A DNA stretch of 32,463 bases, from the NCBI GenBank assembly GCA_018971945.1, contig JAGWZH010000026.1:1-32463 (forward strand). The letters are read 5' to 3'. The notes under the pieces were generated by a model. It had not been told where the DNA came from and did not search any database. It saw nothing but the letters and a program-made list of their open reading frames with translations. A program made the position numbers and the translations under genes. Shown one piece after another: positions 846-11,523 of this stretch; position 1 is the stretch's first letter; every line of letters starts with the position of its first letter. This DNA is from Alphaproteobacteria bacterium (lineage in GTDB: Bacteria > Pseudomonadota > Alphaproteobacteria > Caulobacterales > Aquidulcibacteraceae).

Positions 846-1682
846 TCACCAGGGGCTGATCGCATCCGCGAGGCGCTGGAGGGAGCGAGGCCGCTGAACG
901 GCGGTCACTTGCCCCGCGCCGCCATAGGCGATTCGTGCTTCCGCGATTTGATCGTGGCGGATGGTGTTCGTTGCGGCGATGTCTTCGGGTCGGATCACGC
1001 CGCTGACAGTGAGCTCGCGCAACTCCGCATTAATCAGCACCTGTTGACGGCCCGCAATCACGAGGTTTCCGTTGGGAAGAATATCGACGATGACGACAGC
1101 CACGGTCATTTCGATCTGTTCTTCACGATTAATGCTGCCTTGGCCCTGCGCGGTCGAACTTCCTTCCGCATCGATCAGAGATCCTGGATTATAGCCCCCA
1201 GGCAAAAGCGCCCCTGGCGCGTTCTCGAGCCCGAAAAACGCATTGACGCCGACCGCGGTGGATCCCGAGCGCGTGCGCGAGGAGCTGTTGGTCACCTCTG
1301 CGCTGTCGGCAATCTGGATATTAACTGTGAGGATATCGCCGATGTCCTGGGCCCGCTGGTCGTTGAAAAACGTCCTGGACCCTGGACGCCACAATGAATT
1401 CGGCGCCGTCTGGGAAGCCGCAGCGGACACGGGCGAGGGAAAGGCCCGCACACCCTGACCCGCGAGGCTTGAAGGGTCCCCGACCTCGGCGAGGGGAGGA
1501 GGCGACGCAGCTCTATGAGCGGCGGCGGCGGCCGCGCCGCCAAGATCGGCGACCTGGCCATAGGCCTGCGCGCCGAACCCCTGCACCTCCCCCGCGGCGG
1601 AGTTGATCGTGCCGCATCCCCCCAAGGCGGCTGCTAAGGCGGCGGGCGCAAGGGTTATGGAGAACGGGGTGATGCGACGCAT
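846..1682 (-). CDS. flgH: Flagellar L-ring protein FlgH
   Basis: A 278-aa outer-membrane lipoprotein that forms the L ring, the bushing through which the flagellar rod crosses the outer membrane. The N terminus is a lipoprotein signal with lipobox LGGC, placing the lipidated cysteine at residue 23. The FlgH core follows: a WRPGSRTFFNDQRA segment, then DIGDILTV near residue 115, the EQIEMTVAV strand, and the late NGNLVIAGRQQVLINAE and SGVIRPEDI motifs typical of the family. A ribosome site (AAGGGAAG) lies a few bases before the ATG. It is the last gene of the flgF-flgG-flgA-flgH operon and is separated from flgA by 127 bp with no recognisable gene. Family assignment is secure. Confidence 0.96.
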   Translation of the reverse strand: MRRITPFSITLAPAALAAALGGCGTINSAAGEVQGFGAQAYGQVADLGGAAAAAAHRAASPPPLAEVGDPSSLAGQGVRAFPSPVSAAASQTAPNSLWRPGSRTFFNDQRAQDIGDILTVNIQIADSAEVTNSSSRTRSGSTAVGVNAFFGLENAPGALLPGGYNPGSLIDAEGSSTAQGQGSINREEQIEMTVAVVIVDILPNGNLVIAGRQQVLINAELRELTVSGVIRPEDIAATNTIRHDQIAEARIAYGGAGQVTAVQRPRSLQRLADAISPW

Positions 1683-1809
1683 AGTTGCTTCCCTTCGACT
1701 AAGAACCGCCCGTCCAGAAACATTGGCTCAGGCGGCCCAAACAAGGTCTTGGCGCCTCGTCCGCCGACAGGGGCGGGCCCACGGCCGCGCCCTCGGATCG
1801 AGCGGGAGG

Positions 1810-2331
1810 CTAGTTGACGGCGTTGGCCGAGGCCGCCCCCGGTCCTGTGGCCACAGCTTCCACCGTGACCTCCGATTGCAGATTGACGACCCGCACGCCT
1901 TCTCCGATCGCCGCGTCGTTGAGGGCGCGGCCGCGCGCCGTCAGCTGCAGGCCAGGCGCGATATAGACAAGGGTGATGGTGTCGCCCCGCCGGATCGCCG
2001 GAGGCGCTGCGGAAGTCGCCCGCGCCGAGGCCCGCTGGCCGATGACAAGGATTTCCTGCAGATCCGCAGGCGCCCGCCAAGCTAAACCTGCCGCCGCCGC
2101 CGCCGCTTCCACAAAGCGCGCTGGGAAAGCCGTCACTTGGCCCGGCCGGGGCGCAGGGGCTACCGCTCTCCCCCCAACCTCTCCAGCGTTCTGGAAAAAA
2201 TCGCCGAGAGTGACGGCGGGCCCAGAGGCGGTCACGCGTTCGCGCAGAATCGCCTGCGCCTGAGCTGGATTGGACGCCAAAGCCAGAATCGCGAACAACG
2301 CCACCGCCAAAACTGAAAGCCATTTCGCCAT
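1810..2331 (-). CDS. flgA: Flagellar P-ring assembly chaperone FlgA
   Basis: A 173-aa secreted protein, the periplasmic chaperone needed to assemble the FlgI P ring. A signal peptide is obvious, with likely cleavage after AQA at about residue 25. The middle contains the SAF-like segment (around RRGDTITLVYIAPGLQLTARGRAL) and the near-C-terminal VRVVNLQSEVTVEAVATGPG, which matches the FlgA ending. It is shorter than the enteric protein (about 220 aa), as is common in alphaproteobacteria. A good ribosome site, GGGAGG, sits 7 nt before the ATG. It starts 32 bp after the flgG stop, so co-translation within the same operon is likely. Confidence 0.92.
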   Translation of the reverse strand: MAKWLSVLAVALFAILALASNPAQAQAILRERVTASGPAVTLGDFFQNAGEVGGRAVAPAPRPGQVTAFPARFVEAAAAAAGLAWRAPADLQEILVIGQRASARATSAAPPAIRRGDTITLVYIAPGLQLTARGRALNDAAIGEGVRVVNLQSEVTVEAVATGPGAASANAVN

Positions 2332-2363
2332 GACCGAACCTCCCGGGACAGGTGTTTATGGCG

Positions 2364-3149
2364 TCAGCGTAGCTGACTCGCGGCCTGAAGCATTTCATCA
2401 GAGGCGCTGATGACCCGCGCGTTCATCTCATAGGCCCGCTGCGCGATGATCAGCGCGGAGATTTCCTCCACCGCGTTCACGTTCGAGGTTTCGAGAAAGC
2501 CTTGCATCAGGGTCCCGATTCCTGGGCTCCCTGGCGAGCCGACAGTCGGCGGGCCGGAAGCGGGCGTCTCAAGGAAAAGATTGTCGCCCACCGCTTCAAG
2601 GCCGGCCGCATTCACAAACGAGGCGAGCTCGATCTGGCCGACCTGCTGCGGCGTAGGCTGGCCCGCGAGCGTCACCTCCACGATCCCGTCCCTCGAAATG
2701 CTGACCGCGATGGCTTCCGGAGGAACCGTCACCGCCGGCTCGATTGGAAAGCCGTCTGAGGTCGTCAATTGGCCTTCCTGGTTGAAGGCGAGATTGCCGG
2801 CGCGGGTAAAGGCGGTCGTGCCGTCCGGCATCGCCACCTGCAGGTAGCCGCGTCCCGAGATGGCAAGGTCCGCCGGGTTGTCCGTCCGGGTGATATTGCC
2901 CTGGGTGGTAATGCGCCCGATGGAGTCCGCCCGCACTCCGATGCCGAGTTGTACCCCGAGCGGCAGGATCGTACCGGCCTGCGAAGACGAGGCCCCTGGC
3001 CGTTCAAGGTTTTGATAGAGCATATCCTGAAATTCCGCACGCTGACGTTTATAGCCCGTCGTATTCATGTTCGCGATATTGTGCGAAATGACTTCGACGT
3101 TCATCTGCTGAGCCTGCATCCCACTGGCGGCTATCGAAAGTGCGCGCAT
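2364..3149 (-). CDS. flgG: Flagellar distal rod protein FlgG
   Basis: A 261-aa rod protein exported by the flagellar type III system; it builds the distal rod passing through the P and L rings. The N terminus MRALSIAASGMQAQQ and the flagellar rod-family motif HNIANMNTTGYKRQRAEF (about residues 24-41) are diagnostic. The C terminus has the matching heptad motif, with SNVNAVEEISALIIAQRAYEMN (written here in part) and ASDEMLQAASQLR, which forms the paired helices. Length and motifs match FlgG. A ribosome site AAGGA lies about 9 nt before the ATG. It follows flgF by 26 bp. Confidence 0.97.
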   Translation of the reverse strand: MRALSIAASGMQAQQMNVEVISHNIANMNTTGYKRQRAEFQDMLYQNLERPGASSSQAGTILPLGVQLGIGVRADSIGRITTQGNITRTDNPADLAISGRGYLQVAMPDGTTAFTRAGNLAFNQEGQLTTSDGFPIEPAVTVPPEAIAVSISRDGIVEVTLAGQPTPQQVGQIELASFVNAAGLEAVGDNLFLETPASGPPTVGSPGSPGIGTLMQGFLETSNVNAVEEISALIIAQRAYEMNARVISASDEMLQAASQLR

Positions 3150-3175: not shown

Positions 3176-3901
3176 CTAGCGGCCCAGACGATCGATCGTG
3201 CGCTGACGCAGATCATCAGCACTCCGCACAATCCGCGCTGCTGACTCGTAGGCTCGACTAATTTGGATGAGGTTGGTCATCTCAACGATGGCGATGACAT
3301 TGCTGCTTTCCAGGGCGGCCTGCATGACCTCTCCTTCAGCAGGGAAGAAAGCCTGATCCCCCGCATCCCAGAGATTTTCCCCGATCCGCTCCAGCGCGCC
3401 GGGTCGATCGAACTGCACAATGCCGATCCGCCCCGCCTCAACTCCAGCGATCCGGATCACACCCTGCCGATCAATGCTGGGCTGTTCGCCCCGGGGATCA
3501 ATGACGATGGGCGCCCCAGTCTGGTTCAGCACCGGTCGTCCTTCGCCCGTGACCAGCTGACCGGCGCCGTCAAGGGTGAAGGCCCCGTCGCGGGTGAAGA
3601 GCGGTCCTTCGGGACCCTGCACCGTGAAATAGCCTGGGCCCTCGATGGCGAGATCGAGAGGATTGCCGGTGGCGGTGATGGGGCCTTGGCGGAGATCTCG
3701 CGCCACAGTGAGGTCCCGCGAGAATCGGATGTCGCGGGGACCCTCGTTTGAGAAGGCCTCGGAAGGGGCGAACTCCTCCACCACCATCTGATCCGCCTTG
3801 AAGCCGGTCGTGCTGACATTGGCGAGATTGTTGGCCGCGATGTCCATACGCCGCTGCAAGAGGCGTTGGGACTGCAAGCCCAGCAGCATGGCCGAATCCA
3901 T
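3176..3901 (-). CDS. flgF: Flagellar proximal rod protein FlgF
   Basis: A 241-aa rod protein and the first gene of the flgFGAH operon. It shows the rod/hook N-terminal motif NNLANVSTTGFKADQ (about residues 24-38), the central segment with DLAIEGPGYFTVQGPEG, and a C-terminal helix with SSNVIAIVEMTNLIQISRAYE followed by RTIDRLGR, all as in FlgF. It is shorter and less repetitive than FlgG, and its position directly upstream of flgG supports the call. A possible AGGGAG ribosome site is about 12 nt upstream of the ATG. A sigma-54 type promoter sits about 50-70 bp upstream. Confidence 0.94.
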   Translation of the reverse strand: MDSAMLLGLQSQRLLQRRMDIAANNLANVSTTGFKADQMVVEEFAPSEAFSNEGPRDIRFSRDLTVARDLRQGPITATGNPLDLAIEGPGYFTVQGPEGPLFTRDGAFTLDGAGQLVTGEGRPVLNQTGAPIVIDPRGEQPSIDRQGVIRIAGVEAGRIGIVQFDRPGALERIGENLWDAGDQAFFPAEGEVMQAALESSNVIAIVEMTNLIQISRAYESAARIVRSADDLRQRTIDRLGR

Positions 3902-3952
3902 CGGGCGGAAGCGCTCCCTGCGCAGCTATTAAGGTTGACGCGGCCAAAACCC

Positions 3953-3968
3953 TGCAAACAGCGGGCCA
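3953..3968 (-). promoter_or_regulatory. Candidate sigma-54 (-24/-12) promoter for flgFGAH
   Basis: On the minus strand the sequence reads TGGCCCGCTGTTTGCA. The RpoN consensus is TGGCACG-N4-TTGCW, so all specified positions but one (C for A) match, and the essential GG and GC are 10 nt apart. The predicted start is near 3942, giving a leader of about 40 nt to the flgF ATG at 3901. Established knowledge: in Caulobacter, rod and ring operons are sigma-54 dependent. Nothing here shows activity directly. Confidence 0.78.
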
Positions 3969-4023
3969 GATGAAAAAGGCAATAAAAACAGATACAAAGG
4001 CAAAAAACCCAAAACCATCAGGT

Positions 4024-4059
4024 CGGCAAGTTCCGCCGGGCCCGGCAGTTCTTGCCGGG
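4024..4059. promoter_or_regulatory. Two tandem dyad elements, candidate flagellar activator (FlbD ftr-like) sites
   Basis: Site 1 is CGGCAAGTTCCGCCG (4024-4038). Site 2 is the perfect 7-bp inverted repeat CCCGGCAGTTCTTGCCGGG (4041-4059). The two cores share CGGCA, GTTC and GCCG, and their starts are 19 bp apart, close to two helical turns. Together they form an imperfect 34-bp palindrome (4024-4057). They lie about 80-115 bp upstream of the predicted sigma-54 start for flgF, a normal distance for an enhancer-binding activator. Similarity to Caulobacter ftr elements is from memory of their CCGGCA/GCCGG character, so naming FlbD is inference. Confidence 0.55.
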
Positions 4060-4145
4060 CTTCCACCAATCCTTAACCAGAAACAACGAATCTCAACGCC
4101 TCAAAGAGCAAGCGTCGATCCCGGCGCCATCGAAGGGCTTTGATC

Positions 4146-4763
4146 ATGGCGGGCGGCGGCAAGGCGGCGCAGAAAGACGGGGCTCAGGCGGCCGAGGGCG
4201 CGGACGGTGCGGCGGCGGAGGGCAAGAAGAAGCTCCCTGGCAAGAAGCTCGTCTTATTCGTCATCCTACCAGCTTTGTTGGTGTTGGGCGGCTTGGGCGG
4301 CGCCGCCATGATGCTTCTCAAGCCGGGTGGGGAGCCTCATCAGGAAGGCGAGCGGCGCGCCGGCAAGGATAAGGGCAAAGACCACGGCAAGGCCAAAGGC
4401 GAGAATGGCGAGGGCGAGGAGCTCGGGGGCGGCGCGTTCACTGTGACGCAAGGGGAGGGCGTCTATTTCATCGCACTGCCTGAGGTCTTGGTGAATGTCT
4501 CCACCAGCGATGGCGGCGCGGCGCACCTTAAGCTGAGGCTCACCCTGGAGGCCGCAGACGAATCGGCCGTGTTGGCCCTCGAGCCTGCGATGCCGCGGGT
4601 GATGGACCAGTTTCAGACCTTCCTCCGGGAACTGCGGACGGATGATTTGGCGGGCTCGGGCGGCGCCTATCGGGTCCGGCTGGAGCTTATGCGACGTGTC
4701 AATCTCGTAATCGCTCCTGAGCGCATTGATGCGGTGTTGGTTGAAGAAATGCTGATCCAGTAG
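4146..4763 (+). CDS. fliL: Flagellar basal body-associated protein FliL
   Basis: A single-pass inner-membrane protein that associates with the stator and basal body. I chose the ATG at 4146 (205 aa) over the in-frame TTG at 4140 because the ribosome site GAAGGG ends 8 nt before the ATG but only 2 nt before the TTG. A charged Ala/Gly-rich cytoplasmic start (residues 1-33) is followed by a transmembrane helix at about 34-58 and a Lys/Gly/Glu-rich linker. The periplasmic FliL domain comes next, with LPEVLVNVSTSDG and LKLRLTLEA. The C-terminal RVNLVIAPERIDAVLVEEMLIQ region is the expected FliL ending. It heads the plus-strand operon, with fliM starting 5 nt after its stop. Confidence 0.94.
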   Translation: MAGGGKAAQKDGAQAAEGADGAAAEGKKKLPGKKLVLFVILPALLVLGGLGGAAMMLLKPGGEPHQEGERRAGKDKGKDHGKAKGENGEGEELGGGAFTVTQGEGVYFIALPEVLVNVSTSDGGAAHLKLRLTLEAADESAVLALEPAMPRVMDQFQTFLRELRTDDLAGSGGAYRVRLELMRRVNLVIAPERIDAVLVEEMLIQ

Positions 4764-4768
4764 GGGCG

Positions 4769-5908
4769 ATGATGGACGACGCATTGGGTCAAAACGCGTC
4801 AGACGCCAGTGGGGCGGCGGAGGCCAAGGCCGCAGCTGGCGGTGACGATCTCGCCGCTGAGTGGGAAGCGATGGTGGCAGGGGAGCCGGCCCAGGCGTCC
4901 GCAACAGCTTTGGGCGCTGCAGACCGCGTTCTGAGCCAGGAAGAGATTGATGCGCTACTGGGCTGGGAGGGGGAGGATGAAGAAGCAAGGCGCAGGAGCG
5001 GGCTCCGCGCCCTCATCAATTCCGCGGTCGTCTCCTATGAGCGCCTGCCGATGCTGGAAATCATTTTTGACCGCCTTGTGCGGCTGATGACGACGAGCCT
5101 CCGCAACCTCGCCTCCGACAATATCGACGTCAGTCTTGACCAGATCACGTCGATCCGCTTTGGCGACTATCTCAACTCGATCCCGCTTCCGGCGATGATC
5201 GGCGTGTTTCGGTCCGAGCAGCTAGACAATTTCGGCTTGGTCACGATTGAAACAAACCTCATCTACTCCATCGTTGATGTGCTTCTGGGAGGCCGGCGCG
5301 GCACGACGACGACGCGGGTGGAAGGAAGACCTTACACCACCATCGAACGCGAGCTTGTCACCCGCATGATCGAGGTGGTGCTGCACGACGCCTCCCAGGC
5401 CTTCGCCCCGCTGACGCCGGTCAAGTTTAAGTTAGACCGGATCGAGACCAATCCCCGCTTCGCCGCCATCGCGCGGCCGCCCAATGCAGCGTTGCTGGTG
5501 CAATTGCGCCTCGACATGGAGGATCGCGGAGGACGGCTGGAGCTTCTATTGCCCTATGCGACCTTGGAGCCCATCCGGAAGCTCCTGCTGCAGCAATTCA
5601 TGGGCGAGAAATTTGGCCGCGACAATATATGGGAAGGTCACCTCGCCTCAGAGCTTTGGCGCACCCGCGTCGAGGTCCGCGCCATCATGGACGACATGAA
5701 GGCGCCGCTCAAGACTGTGCTGAACCTGAAAGTCGGCGACACCTTGATGTTGAACGCGCCGGCGGAGGCCCCCGTGGTCTTGAAGTGCGGCCCCATGGCG
5801 CTGACCACCGCCCGCGTGGGGCGTTTGGGCCAATCGGTTGCGCTGCGCGTGGACAAGCCCGTCGCCGCCGCGGCCCGGCGCGCAATGATAATGATGGAAG
5901 GTGGCTGA
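4769..5908 (+). CDS. fliM: Flagellar motor switch protein FliM
   Basis: A C-ring component that binds CheY-P and couples it to switching. The CheY-P binding peptide LSQEEIDALLGW is at residues 55-66. The middle domain contains RLPMLEIIFDRLVRLMTTSLRN, LDQITSIRFGDYLNSIP, and the VDVLLGGRRG motif with the following ERELVTRMI stretch. The C-terminal SpoA-like domain has LNLKVGDTLMLNAPAEAPVVLKCG and the ending with GRLGQSVALRVDKPV. Unlike enteric FliM, about 50 acidic, Ala-rich residues precede the CheY peptide. Two consecutive ATG codons (4769, 4772) could start it; AGGGG at 4762-4766 spaces slightly better to 4772. The stop overlaps the next gene's ribosome site region. Confidence 0.97.
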   Translation: MMDDALGQNASDASGAAEAKAAAGGDDLAAEWEAMVAGEPAQASATALGAADRVLSQEEIDALLGWEGEDEEARRRSGLRALINSAVVSYERLPMLEIIFDRLVRLMTTSLRNLASDNIDVSLDQITSIRFGDYLNSIPLPAMIGVFRSEQLDNFGLVTIETNLIYSIVDVLLGGRRGTTTTRVEGRPYTTIERELVTRMIEVVLHDASQAFAPLTPVKFKLDRIETNPRFAAIARPPNAALLVQLRLDMEDRGGRLELLLPYATLEPIRKLLLQQFMGEKFGRDNIWEGHLASELWRTRVEVRAIMDDMKAPLKTVLNLKVGDTLMLNAPAEAPVVLKCGPMALTTARVGRLGQSVALRVDKPVAAAARRAMIMMEGG

Positions 5909-9900: not shown

Positions 9901-10176
9901 GGGTCGCCTGAGGCCACCTCCTTTGAGGTGGTCGCAGGATCTGTGGACGCAAACGGCCTGGAACTGGCTGAACTTGCCCGGGCAGTGGGCCGTTCAGATT
10001 TACTGGACGCGTGGCTTGCCGATATTCGGGCGCGCATCGCTGGCGCACCGAACGCTCAGGCCCAGGCGCCTTCCGCCCCCGCCGCGCCGGGGCGGCCGGC
10101 GGAGCCCATGCCGGCCGAGCCTGCTCTGCCCGCCCGGGCCGCGCTTCCCGCCAGTATCGGCGAACGCCGCGTCTGA
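6955..10176 (+). CDS. Large secreted TPR protein of the fliLM operon
   Basis: A protein of about 1073 aa. I prefer ATG 6955 because it begins directly with a signal peptide (MAISWKSAGYLALG..., likely cleaved after AHA at about residue 24). An in-frame TTG at 6916 would add 13 charged residues. The N-terminal half (about 25-480) holds several degenerate beta-strand modules, each with a TRLSFRWP or TRLEFPFD-type strand and LRIMLTLEEGV/RVVVDLLPP-type strands, resembling AMIN-like repeats. The C-terminal half (about 510-1000) is helical with tetratricopeptide-like repeats (for example MGRYAEAQADLAASGLADDP, DIGRWREALSIMRAVAD, RKPQEALEVINATRQAN). It ends in a Pro/Ala-rich tail. A periplasmic scaffold for motor or envelope assembly is plausible but is inference. 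It follows the motE-like gene by 68 bp. Confidence 0.82.
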   Translation: MAISWKSAGYLALGAASVTAAAHAETARFSAAPVGEGAVLSIRWADGRSGAPPEAQAAIENDVLVVRFAAPVDGDVSGLVAGAPDAIAFARRSVDGSELRIALRQPMTARVSEADGARVVSLTPAPEQPPAADPEAALVRLAVSQRDDHTRLSFRWPTGDAGVSVTARSDNRLELRFSRPGDIDLSLLRTSPPRFLRTAQLLSREGGDLRIMLTLEEGVRRRQFTDGGRVVVDLLPPDREAIAAPSAETAAIAPLPPTASPAGLVRMRLSEQEGQTRLEFPFDAPAAAAVFLRGGAVWVLFDGGVGVDLTGVVRAGRRHRDVTPIIEAGLAGVRIPVPDGVTATASLEGNVWVVNLGPRGPGRGETFAVLERQTSARGAGSITAGFGRDGVVRVIDDPAAGDQIAVAMLPGPIIGVAERRSTVEAALLPTRHGAVVELRSDGVAAAFSGGFLRVTRGAGMVAGAGLNTTDPGGVTLPGAMDSAVFARLQELQIRAAAEGVEQGAGVAARLALVEFLLENELAAEALGALRLALINQPQLDFDPAFRMMRASANIMMGRYAEAQADLAASGLADDPAVALWRGYAYAQAENWTDALAELARGMSALGDQTPDWRARFRLAQAKTALALDDPSFCAEAARAAIAEAASSSVRDMASIVLAQAQLALGDRATALTALDRASVNPNEEIAVRAALEAIRARVATGELSAPAAAEQLEGLRYRWRGDGLELDVSAVLGDVYADIGRWREALSIMRAVADRYAAAPAARRLRMTMTDTFERLFLEGGADALEPIQALGLFYQFRELTPVGSDGDRMVRLLAGRLVRVDLLEQAAQLLRHQVDQRLEGMGRSEIAADLAAIYLMDRKPQEALEVINATRQANLPGPLVAERRILEARSHLELGRLDHALEIVERDQSSQAQALRAQAAWRQRDWERAAAELRRLLPTPAGEPYGVTDRQIVLRTAVALTLAGDGAGARALYRTHVGGMSGSPEATSFEVVAGSVDANGLELAELARAVGRSDLLDAWLADIRARIAGAPNAQAQAPSAPAAPGRPAEPMPAEPALPARAALPASIGERRV

Positions 10177-10214
10177 CGCTTGGCGGCGGCGCGGCGAGAG
10201 GGCAGAACCATGCC

Positions 10215-10898
10215 GTGATATCGGTGGTGATCCCGACCTTGAACGCGGCCAAGAGCCTGCCGCACGCATTGTCGCCTTTGATCGGCGGCGTGATCGCGGA
10301 CCTCGTCAAGCAGGTCATCGTCGTCGACGGGGGCTCCACCGACGAGACTTTGGCTCTCGCCGACGCGGTCGGCTGCGAGATCGTGCATTCCTTGCGGGGT
10401 CGCGGTCCTCAACTGATGGCTGGCGCGGCCGCGGCGACAGGCTCTTGGCTTTTGTTCCTGCATGCCGACACGGTGCTTGCCGAAGATTGGATCTCAGAAG
10501 CCCAACGCCATGTCCGGTCTGGGAAAGAGCGGGCGGCTGCTTTTCGCTTCGCCTTCGACGACGATGGTCTCGCCGCCCGCCATGCGGCGTTCTGGGTTGA
10601 TCTGAGGTGCGTGCTGTTCAAGCTGCCCTACGGCGACCAGGGATTGCTGATCTCCCGCAAGCTCTATGACGCTTTGGGAGGGTTCAGGCCTTTGCCGCTC
10701 ATGGAAGACGTAGACTTCGTGCGCCGTATTGGCCGGGCGCGGCTCTCTTTGTTAAGGGCCAAGGCTTTCACCAGCGCGGAGAAATATCGCCGCGACGGTT
10801 ACATGAGGCGCAGCCTGCATAACCTGTTCCTGCTGGCGCGTTACCTGACGGGCGCAGATCCCGCGGACTTGGAGAAAGCTTATGCCAGGGGGGGCTGA
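10215..10898 (+). CDS. TIGR04283-like family 2 glycosyltransferase
   Basis: A 227-aa GT-A fold protein. It begins with ISVVIPTLNAAKSLP, contains IVVDGGSTDET (nucleotide-sugar binding Asp) and GRGPQLMAGAAAATGSWLLFLHADT, where HAD supplies the metal-binding acidic motif. LPYGDQGLLISRKLYDALGGF and PLMEDVDFVRRI are typical of the rSAM/selenodomain-associated transferase 2 group. I chose GTG 10215 because translation then starts right at the first beta strand, with GAGAGGG upstream. The upstream frame overlaps the preceding TPR gene and looks like a shadow. The substrate is unknown. The next gene overlaps its 3' end by 17 bp, so the two are translationally coupled. Confidence 0.88.
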   Translation: MISVVIPTLNAAKSLPHALSPLIGGVIADLVKQVIVVDGGSTDETLALADAVGCEIVHSLRGRGPQLMAGAAAATGSWLLFLHADTVLAEDWISEAQRHVRSGKERAAAFRFAFDDDGLAARHAAFWVDLRCVLFKLPYGDQGLLISRKLYDALGGFRPLPLMEDVDFVRRIGRARLSLLRAKAFTSAEKYRRDGYMRRSLHNLFLLARYLTGADPADLEKAYARGG

Positions 10899-11523
10899 GG
10901 GACGGCGTCCCACGGTGGTCATGATGGCCAAGGCCCCAGCCGTCGGCCGCGGCAAACAGCGTTTGGCGAGGGATCTGGGCCGGGTGCAGGCGTGGCGGGT
11001 CAATCGTGATCTCCAGCGCAGGGCCTGTCGGGCAGCGCAGGCGGGTCCCTGGGTCTTCGTGCTTTGCGTCAGTCCTGACCGTGCGCTGAAGGCGGTTCTG
11101 CCGGGCGTCTGGCCGCCGACGCCTCTGCGAAGGCCCCAAGGGCGGGGCGATCTGGGGATGCGGATCGCGGCTGGGATGCACGGATTGAGGGGGCCTGTTG
11201 TGGTCGTCGGGGCGGACTGCCCCGCCATGGGCGTGGCCGACCTAGCGGCCGCCTTCAAGGCGCTCCGCCGCTGTCCTTCGGTGCTGGGCCCGGCTGCGGA
11301 CGGGGGGTTTTGGCTGGTCGGCGCACAAGACCCAAAAGCGCTGGTCAAGGCGCTGCCCGGCGTGAGGTGGTCCACCCCGAATGCGGGCGCAGACATGATC
11401 CAGAGGCTTCCTGGCCCGGTGGCGCGTCTGCGCGTTCTCGCCGACATCGACGACGCAGCATCTTGGCGCGCTTACCGATCCAGCGCCACATACAAGGCCG
11501 GCCGCCCCGAGGCGAGGGATTGA
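10882..11523 (+). CDS. DUF2064 / TIGR04282-like transferase
   Basis: A 213-aa nucleotidyl- or glycosyl-transferase fold protein. Diagnostic segments are VMMAKAPAVGRGKQRLARDLG (opening strand and loop, residues about 12-32), GDLGMRIAAGMHGLRGPVVVVGADCPAM (DCP metal-site motif) and LGPAADGGFWLVGAQ. These match the rSAM/selenodomain-associated transferase 1 family, which is usually paired with TIGR04283 as it is here. The ATG at 10882 has GGAG about 8 nt upstream. The 3' end overlaps the convergent lytic transglycosylase gene by 52 bp. No radical SAM or selenium-linked gene lies nearby, so the pathway is unknown. Confidence 0.88.
   Translation: MPGGAEGRRPTVVMMAKAPAVGRGKQRLARDLGRVQAWRVNRDLQRRACRAAQAGPWVFVLCVSPDRALKAVLPGVWPPTPLRRPQGRGDLGMRIAAGMHGLRGPVVVVGADCPAMGVADLAAAFKALRRCPSVLGPAADGGFWLVGAQDPKALVKALPGVRWSTPNAGADMIQRLPGPVARLRVLADIDDAASWRAYRSSATYKAGRPEARD

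Follow-up and report, generated by a model that had tools for sequence, protein, structure and literature searches.

A divergent flgF-fliL control region with a predicted sigma-54 promoter and a probable FlbD site in an Aquidulcibacteraceae genome

The flgF-fliL gap and its sigma-54 site

The window, i.e., the whole 32,463-nucleotide stretch of DNA analysed here, is contig C76 of a 3.41-Mb alphaproteobacterial genome (Aquidulcibacteraceae). Two sets of flagellar genes diverge in it from a 244-bp intergenic gap at 3902-4145. The features of the locus are given below, with profile scores and cut-offs, or the grounds for the assignment, in brackets.

846-1682, minus strand: flgH, 278 aa (NF001305, 257.2 bits, cut-off 255)
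1655-2398, minus strand: 247-aa ORF in the flgA position (without a family match; name inferred from position only)
2364-3149, minus strand: flgG, 261 aa (TIGR02488, 355.6 bits, cut-off 252.75)
3176-3901, minus strand: flgF, 241 aa (TIGR02490, 183.1 bits, cut-off 178.5)
3942, minus strand: predicted flgF transcription start, giving a leader of about 41 nt (from spacing, counting 12 nt on from the -12 C)
3953-3968, minus strand: predicted sigma-54 (-24/-12) promoter TGGCCCGCTGTTTGCA, facing flgF (pattern match, matrix score, shuffles, conservation in relatives)
3969-4024, no strand: AT-rich spacer between the sigma-54 core and the palindromes (AT fraction and IHF scan)
4025-4039, no strand: imperfect second palindrome copy CGGCA-AGTTC-CGCCG, possible second FlbD site (sequence reading, 9/10 core bases)
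4040-4060, no strand: perfect palindrome GCCCGGCA-GTTCT-TGCCGGGC, probable FlbD (ftr-like) site (sequence reading, conservation, fliK geometry)
4073-4079, plus strand: TTAACCA, CtrA-type half-site facing fliL (sequence reading, conservation)
4146-4763, plus strand: fliL, 205 aa (PF03748, 52.4 bits, cut-off 24.6)
4769-5908, plus strand: fliM, 379 aa (TIGR01397, 302.2 bits, cut-off 219.6)

Elsewhere in the window, at 10011-11523, two neighbouring ORFs match the glycosyltransferase families TIGR04283 and TIGR04282, the second below its cut-off; these families carry an arsenosugar biosynthesis annotation.

An earlier note on this DNA had placed a sigma-54 site with a single mismatch and exact GG-N10-GC spacing on the minus strand at 3968-3953, and both direct reading of the sequence and a pattern search bear this out. 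The site, TGGCCCGCTGTTTGCA, fits the TGGCRCG-N4-TTGCW context except at its fifth base, where it has C and the consensus has A or G. It is the only stretch in the 32-kb window with no more than one mismatch to TGGCACGN4TTGC; when up to three mismatches are allowed, the window holds 107 matches against a chance mean of 128, i.e., no excess. Scoring with an RpoN matrix, proposed in the same note as a check, made TGGCCCGCTGTTTGCA the top match of the whole window on either strand (17.1 bits, runner-up 11.1), using a weight matrix of our own, built from approximate consensus frequencies. Among 20,000 dinucleotide shuffles of the gap, read on one strand, a single one reached 17.0 bits. Sigma-54 promoters are RpoN-dependent and direct transcription from a +1 position about 12 nt downstream of the -12 element; here, 51 bases separate the site from the flgF ATG at 3901. 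The claim that no equally good match points toward fliL held as well, the best fliL-facing score in the gap being only 7.9 bits against 17.1, and a sigma-54 promoter for fliL was rejected on that score.

Genome-wide, TGGCNCGN4TTGC has 17 exact copies among the matches listed, and with at most one mismatch it has 536 matches compared with 402 for a backwards control, so that many of these must be due to chance. ORFs were listed around the 17 exact copies, and several of them overlap the match. One exact copy on contig C39 (L006:1501-1515) lies about 113 bp before the gene for a 323-aa protein that looks secreted and carries repeated GNS-type motifs.

The genome encodes the trans-acting factors of such a system. 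RpoN has a single match (NF004596, 697.1 bits, cut-off 499), FlbD is encoded next to flhA (NF050807, 767.1 bits, cut-off 750) and FliX next to flgI (PF10768, 97.9 bits, cut-off 25), while CtrA (NF045991, 419.5 bits, cut-off 350) shares a flagellar contig with FlbD; a ChpT-like phosphotransferase is also present. A single flagellin gene was found, after flbT and flaF (L117:7120-8379, contig C198). No sigma-54 match lies upstream of it, the best score there being 3.0 bits, and a sigma-54 promoter at this gene was rejected. Caulobacter flagellins, in contrast, have sigma-54 promoters, and the hierarchy in this organism is therefore not identical to that of Caulobacter.

Conservation of the gap in relatives

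In order to compare the gap across relatives, we searched 61 genomes for FlgF. A match was obtained in 59, the window's own included, with none in G057 and G059 and only a weak one in G025, which left 58 upstream regions to be read: 45 with a fliL confirmed by tblastn, two added by hand and 11 without fliL. In the first hand-added region (L064) the contig ends 318 bp upstream, where a lysine-rich, fliL-like ORF can be seen to begin. The second (L092) has no fliL match and was chosen partly for the elements under study; the strict counts below therefore refer to the 45 confirmed regions, with both hand-added rows removed. A separate related-locus scan with FlgF returned one distant Bacillota locus and was left out of the comparison. 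In one genome the flgF match is split in two and has an internal TGA (G034:C35:146380-147068), perhaps through a frameshift or an assembly error.

A flgF-facing sigma-54 site of at least 10 bits was found in 45/45 confirmed divergent regions and one of at least 11.5 bits in 43/45 (47/47 and 45/47 with the hand-added rows), compared with shuffle rates, computed on the 47 regions, of 4.4% and 1.9%, respectively. A fliL-facing site of at least 10 bits occurs in only one confirmed region (L102, 10.7 bits; 1/45, or 1/47). Upstream of the sigma-54 core, a palindrome with at least 9/10 core bases is present in 43/45 regions (45/47; shuffle rate 1.9%) and a fliL-facing TTAACC in 39/45 (40/47). All three elements occur together, with sigma-54 at 11.5 bits or more, in 35/45 (36/47). 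In the 11 regions without a tblastn fliL the corresponding counts for sigma-54 site, palindrome and TTAACC are 0/11, 0/11 and 0/11; when L092 is counted as non-divergent, a sigma-54 site with a palindrome occurs in 1/12 such regions. The confirmed regions span 20 genera, again including the window's own, and as the genomes are related, these counts are not independent trials. The three DNA elements are thus both present in the window and conserved, and conservation of the sigma-54 site in relatives is well beyond chance. Together with the strength of the match and the presence in the genome of RpoN and of a FlbD that fits the Caulobacter model, the 45/45 conservation supports the prediction, made in the earlier note, of a sigma-54 promoter for flgF.

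Candidate regulators on the two sides of the gap

The TTAACC half-site facing fliL was correctly recognised in the earlier note, which had placed it at 4072-4077; its actual position is 4073-4078. It is separated from the palindrome cluster by 12 bp. A full CtrA box reads TTAA-N7-TTAA. No such box facing fliL was found, and the conserved part is the right half only. The motif is compatible with CtrA control of fliL. According to PMC11264516, Caulobacter fliL is activated by CtrA from a single AAAA-N7-TTAA site at -35, the left half of which is degenerate; CtrA half-sites activate near -35 and repress when they lie over -10 (PMC4287350), and fliL of Ruegeria KLH11 is described as CtrA-dependent (PMC3692519). 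The half-site might instead be bound by a regulator other than CtrA, e.g., SciP, whose ChIP peaks contain a motif resembling the CtrA half-site (as cited in PMC4287350). With a CtrA gene in this genome and fliL responding to CtrA in both Caulobacter and Ruegeria KLH11, we regard this as improbable.

The earlier note overlooked the conserved FlbD-type palindrome. Its core (4043-4057) lies 74 bp from the sigma-54 core; at FlbD-dependent class III promoters the ftr enhancer is located about 100 bp from the start. The palindrome at 4040-4060, which we take to be a FlbD site from the general form of FlbD motifs, is likely to act as a FlbD enhancer. The pattern CGGCA-N5-TGCCG has 10 exact copies genome-wide compared with 21 for a backwards control, so that palindrome counts alone prove nothing and the setting of each copy is needed. 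Three of the 10 lie in flagellar promoter gaps, namely flgF/fliL, fliK/flgK and the region upstream of an apparent fliQ-fliR-flhB. At the fliK promoter of the same genome, a 14.4-bit sigma-54 match (C126:66138-66153) has the exact palindrome 75 bp away, and fliK and flgK diverge around this one palindrome (L088, contig C126:66138-66314); the flgK-facing sigma-54-like site there is weaker, at 10.0 bits. The third copy (C83:3431-3445; L123:1501) lies directly upstream of this apparent fliQ-fliR-flhB, an early-type operon whose genes were named by eye from their sequences, a placement that is expected if FlbD represses that operon. Near-CtrA boxes and a near-palindrome also occur at flgB/fliO, and a near-CtrA box with palindrome-like arms at fliF, named by eye and position.

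The stretch between the sigma-54 core and the palindrome core (3969-4042) has an AT fraction of 0.54, compared with 0.39 locally. No IHF-like site was found in the window gap, where the best match (6/9) is below the shuffle mean of 6.58. This differs from Caulobacter, where sigma-54 and IHF are both required by the class III genes, which serve the rod, the outer rings and the hook (PMC3096577); in FlbD-dependent promoters of this class the IHF site is expected between enhancer and promoter.

Even with a genuine sigma-54 promoter, its activator could be an enhancer-binding protein other than FlbD, the palindrome serving something else. The genome has three further full-length sigma-54 activators that are candidates for this role, an NtrC-like regulator on contig C33 and NtrX and an NtrC-like protein on C132. 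FlbD, however, is the one encoded next to flhA within the flagellar cluster, and the palindrome accompanies flagellar sigma-54 promoters, whereas none of the 11 regions lacking a sigma-54 site has it, which makes another activator quite unlikely.

On the flgF side, we predicted leader lengths by setting +1 at 12 nt from the -12 C. The predicted flgF leader is 1-3 nt in 15/47 genomes (L058-L071 and L102, genera g8-g11), with the sigma-54 core 27-29 nt before the ATG, compared with 41 nt in the window. The flgF mRNA of these four related genera should, on this prediction, be nearly leaderless; our search, to which most of the subscription literature was closed, found no paper plainly on leaderless sigma-54 flgF mRNA. 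TTAACC or GGTTAA adjoins the sigma-54 core on its upstream side in 7/47 regions and on its downstream side in 10/47, against a background of 4.2% of random 15-nt stretches from the same regions, the downstream stretch scanned being 17 nt. Altogether, CtrA-type half-sites abut or overlap the flgF sigma-54 core in 16/47 regions (L058, L059, L061-L065, L067, L069-L072, L096, L098, L101 and L102), and in the four short-leader genera they flank or overlap it in most genomes.

Such flanking half-sites in several relatives mean that CtrA may act on the flgF side too, and they lend something to the idea that flgF is transcribed mainly from another promoter in this gap, of the housekeeping or CtrA type, with the sigma-54 site only minor. 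The window itself has no flanking half-site, however, and a sigma-54 site is present in every confirmed divergent region, so we hold this to be very unlikely. That TGGCCCGCTGTTTGCA arose by chance, the genome being GC-rich and many of its other matches due to chance, was rejected as extremely unlikely, given a sole match with at most one mismatch, 17.1 against 11.1 bits, a single shuffle in 20,000 and retention in all 45 confirmed regions across 20 genera.

A probable Caulobacter-type early and late arrangement

In Caulobacter, CtrA drives the early flagellar genes, and FlbD, itself controlled by FliX, binds ftr sites, through which early genes are repressed and later ones activated (PMC3930126 and PMC3096577). 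The locus resembles this class II/III hierarchy in several respects: RpoN, FlbD, FliX and CtrA are all encoded in the genome, sigma-54 sites lie at the rod/ring and hook operons and a CtrA-type half-site at fliL, and probable FlbD palindromes are found at early and late operons alike. In Phenylobacterium zucineum, flgH-flaD-flgG-flgF and fliL-fliM have the same order and divergence around a gap of about 219 bp (PMC2529317), a likeness in gene layout. The Caulobacter and P. zucineum literature places the window locus within a known arrangement. Rhodobacter sphaeroides fla2 likewise has divergent flagellar promoters with CtrA sites (fliF2/fliL2, flgB2/fliI2; PMC6180460), but there both sides are CtrA-activated, whereas here one side has sigma-54 and FlbD-type elements.

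We consider it highly probable that the 244-bp gap is a divergent flagellar control region of the Caulobacter type, with CtrA serving the early fliLM genes and sigma-54 with FlbD serving the late flgF operon, in keeping with the two temporal classes proposed in the earlier note. Early on, phosphorylated CtrA would bind the TTAACCA half-site and give fliL-fliM transcription. Completion of the early basal structure would be the late trigger, with FlbD held or released by FliX. FlbD on the palindromes at 4025-4060 would then act as an enhancer-bound activator of RpoN polymerase at 3968-3953, yielding a flgF-flgG-(flgA?)-flgH transcript from about 3942. We infer this pairing of proteins with elements, as well as the start sites and the timing, including that the two operons may fire at different times.

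A further, tentative extension, which we think somewhat more doubtful than probable, is that the FlbD palindrome is a two-way switch, an enhancer for flgF and a shut-off for fliLM, and that CtrA additionally blocks the late operon in four genera. There, CtrA half-sites at the sigma-54 core would keep the late operon shut until CtrA is cleared.

The Caulobacter-type reading would mean that a divergent early/late wiring of flgF and fliL persists in at least 20 genera and that a single short gap combines three separable elements. The gap may therefore offer a compact system for seeing how one enhancer-binding protein passes control from an early operon to a late one. The comparison also flags a clade in which a sigma-54 promoter should yield a nearly leaderless mRNA.
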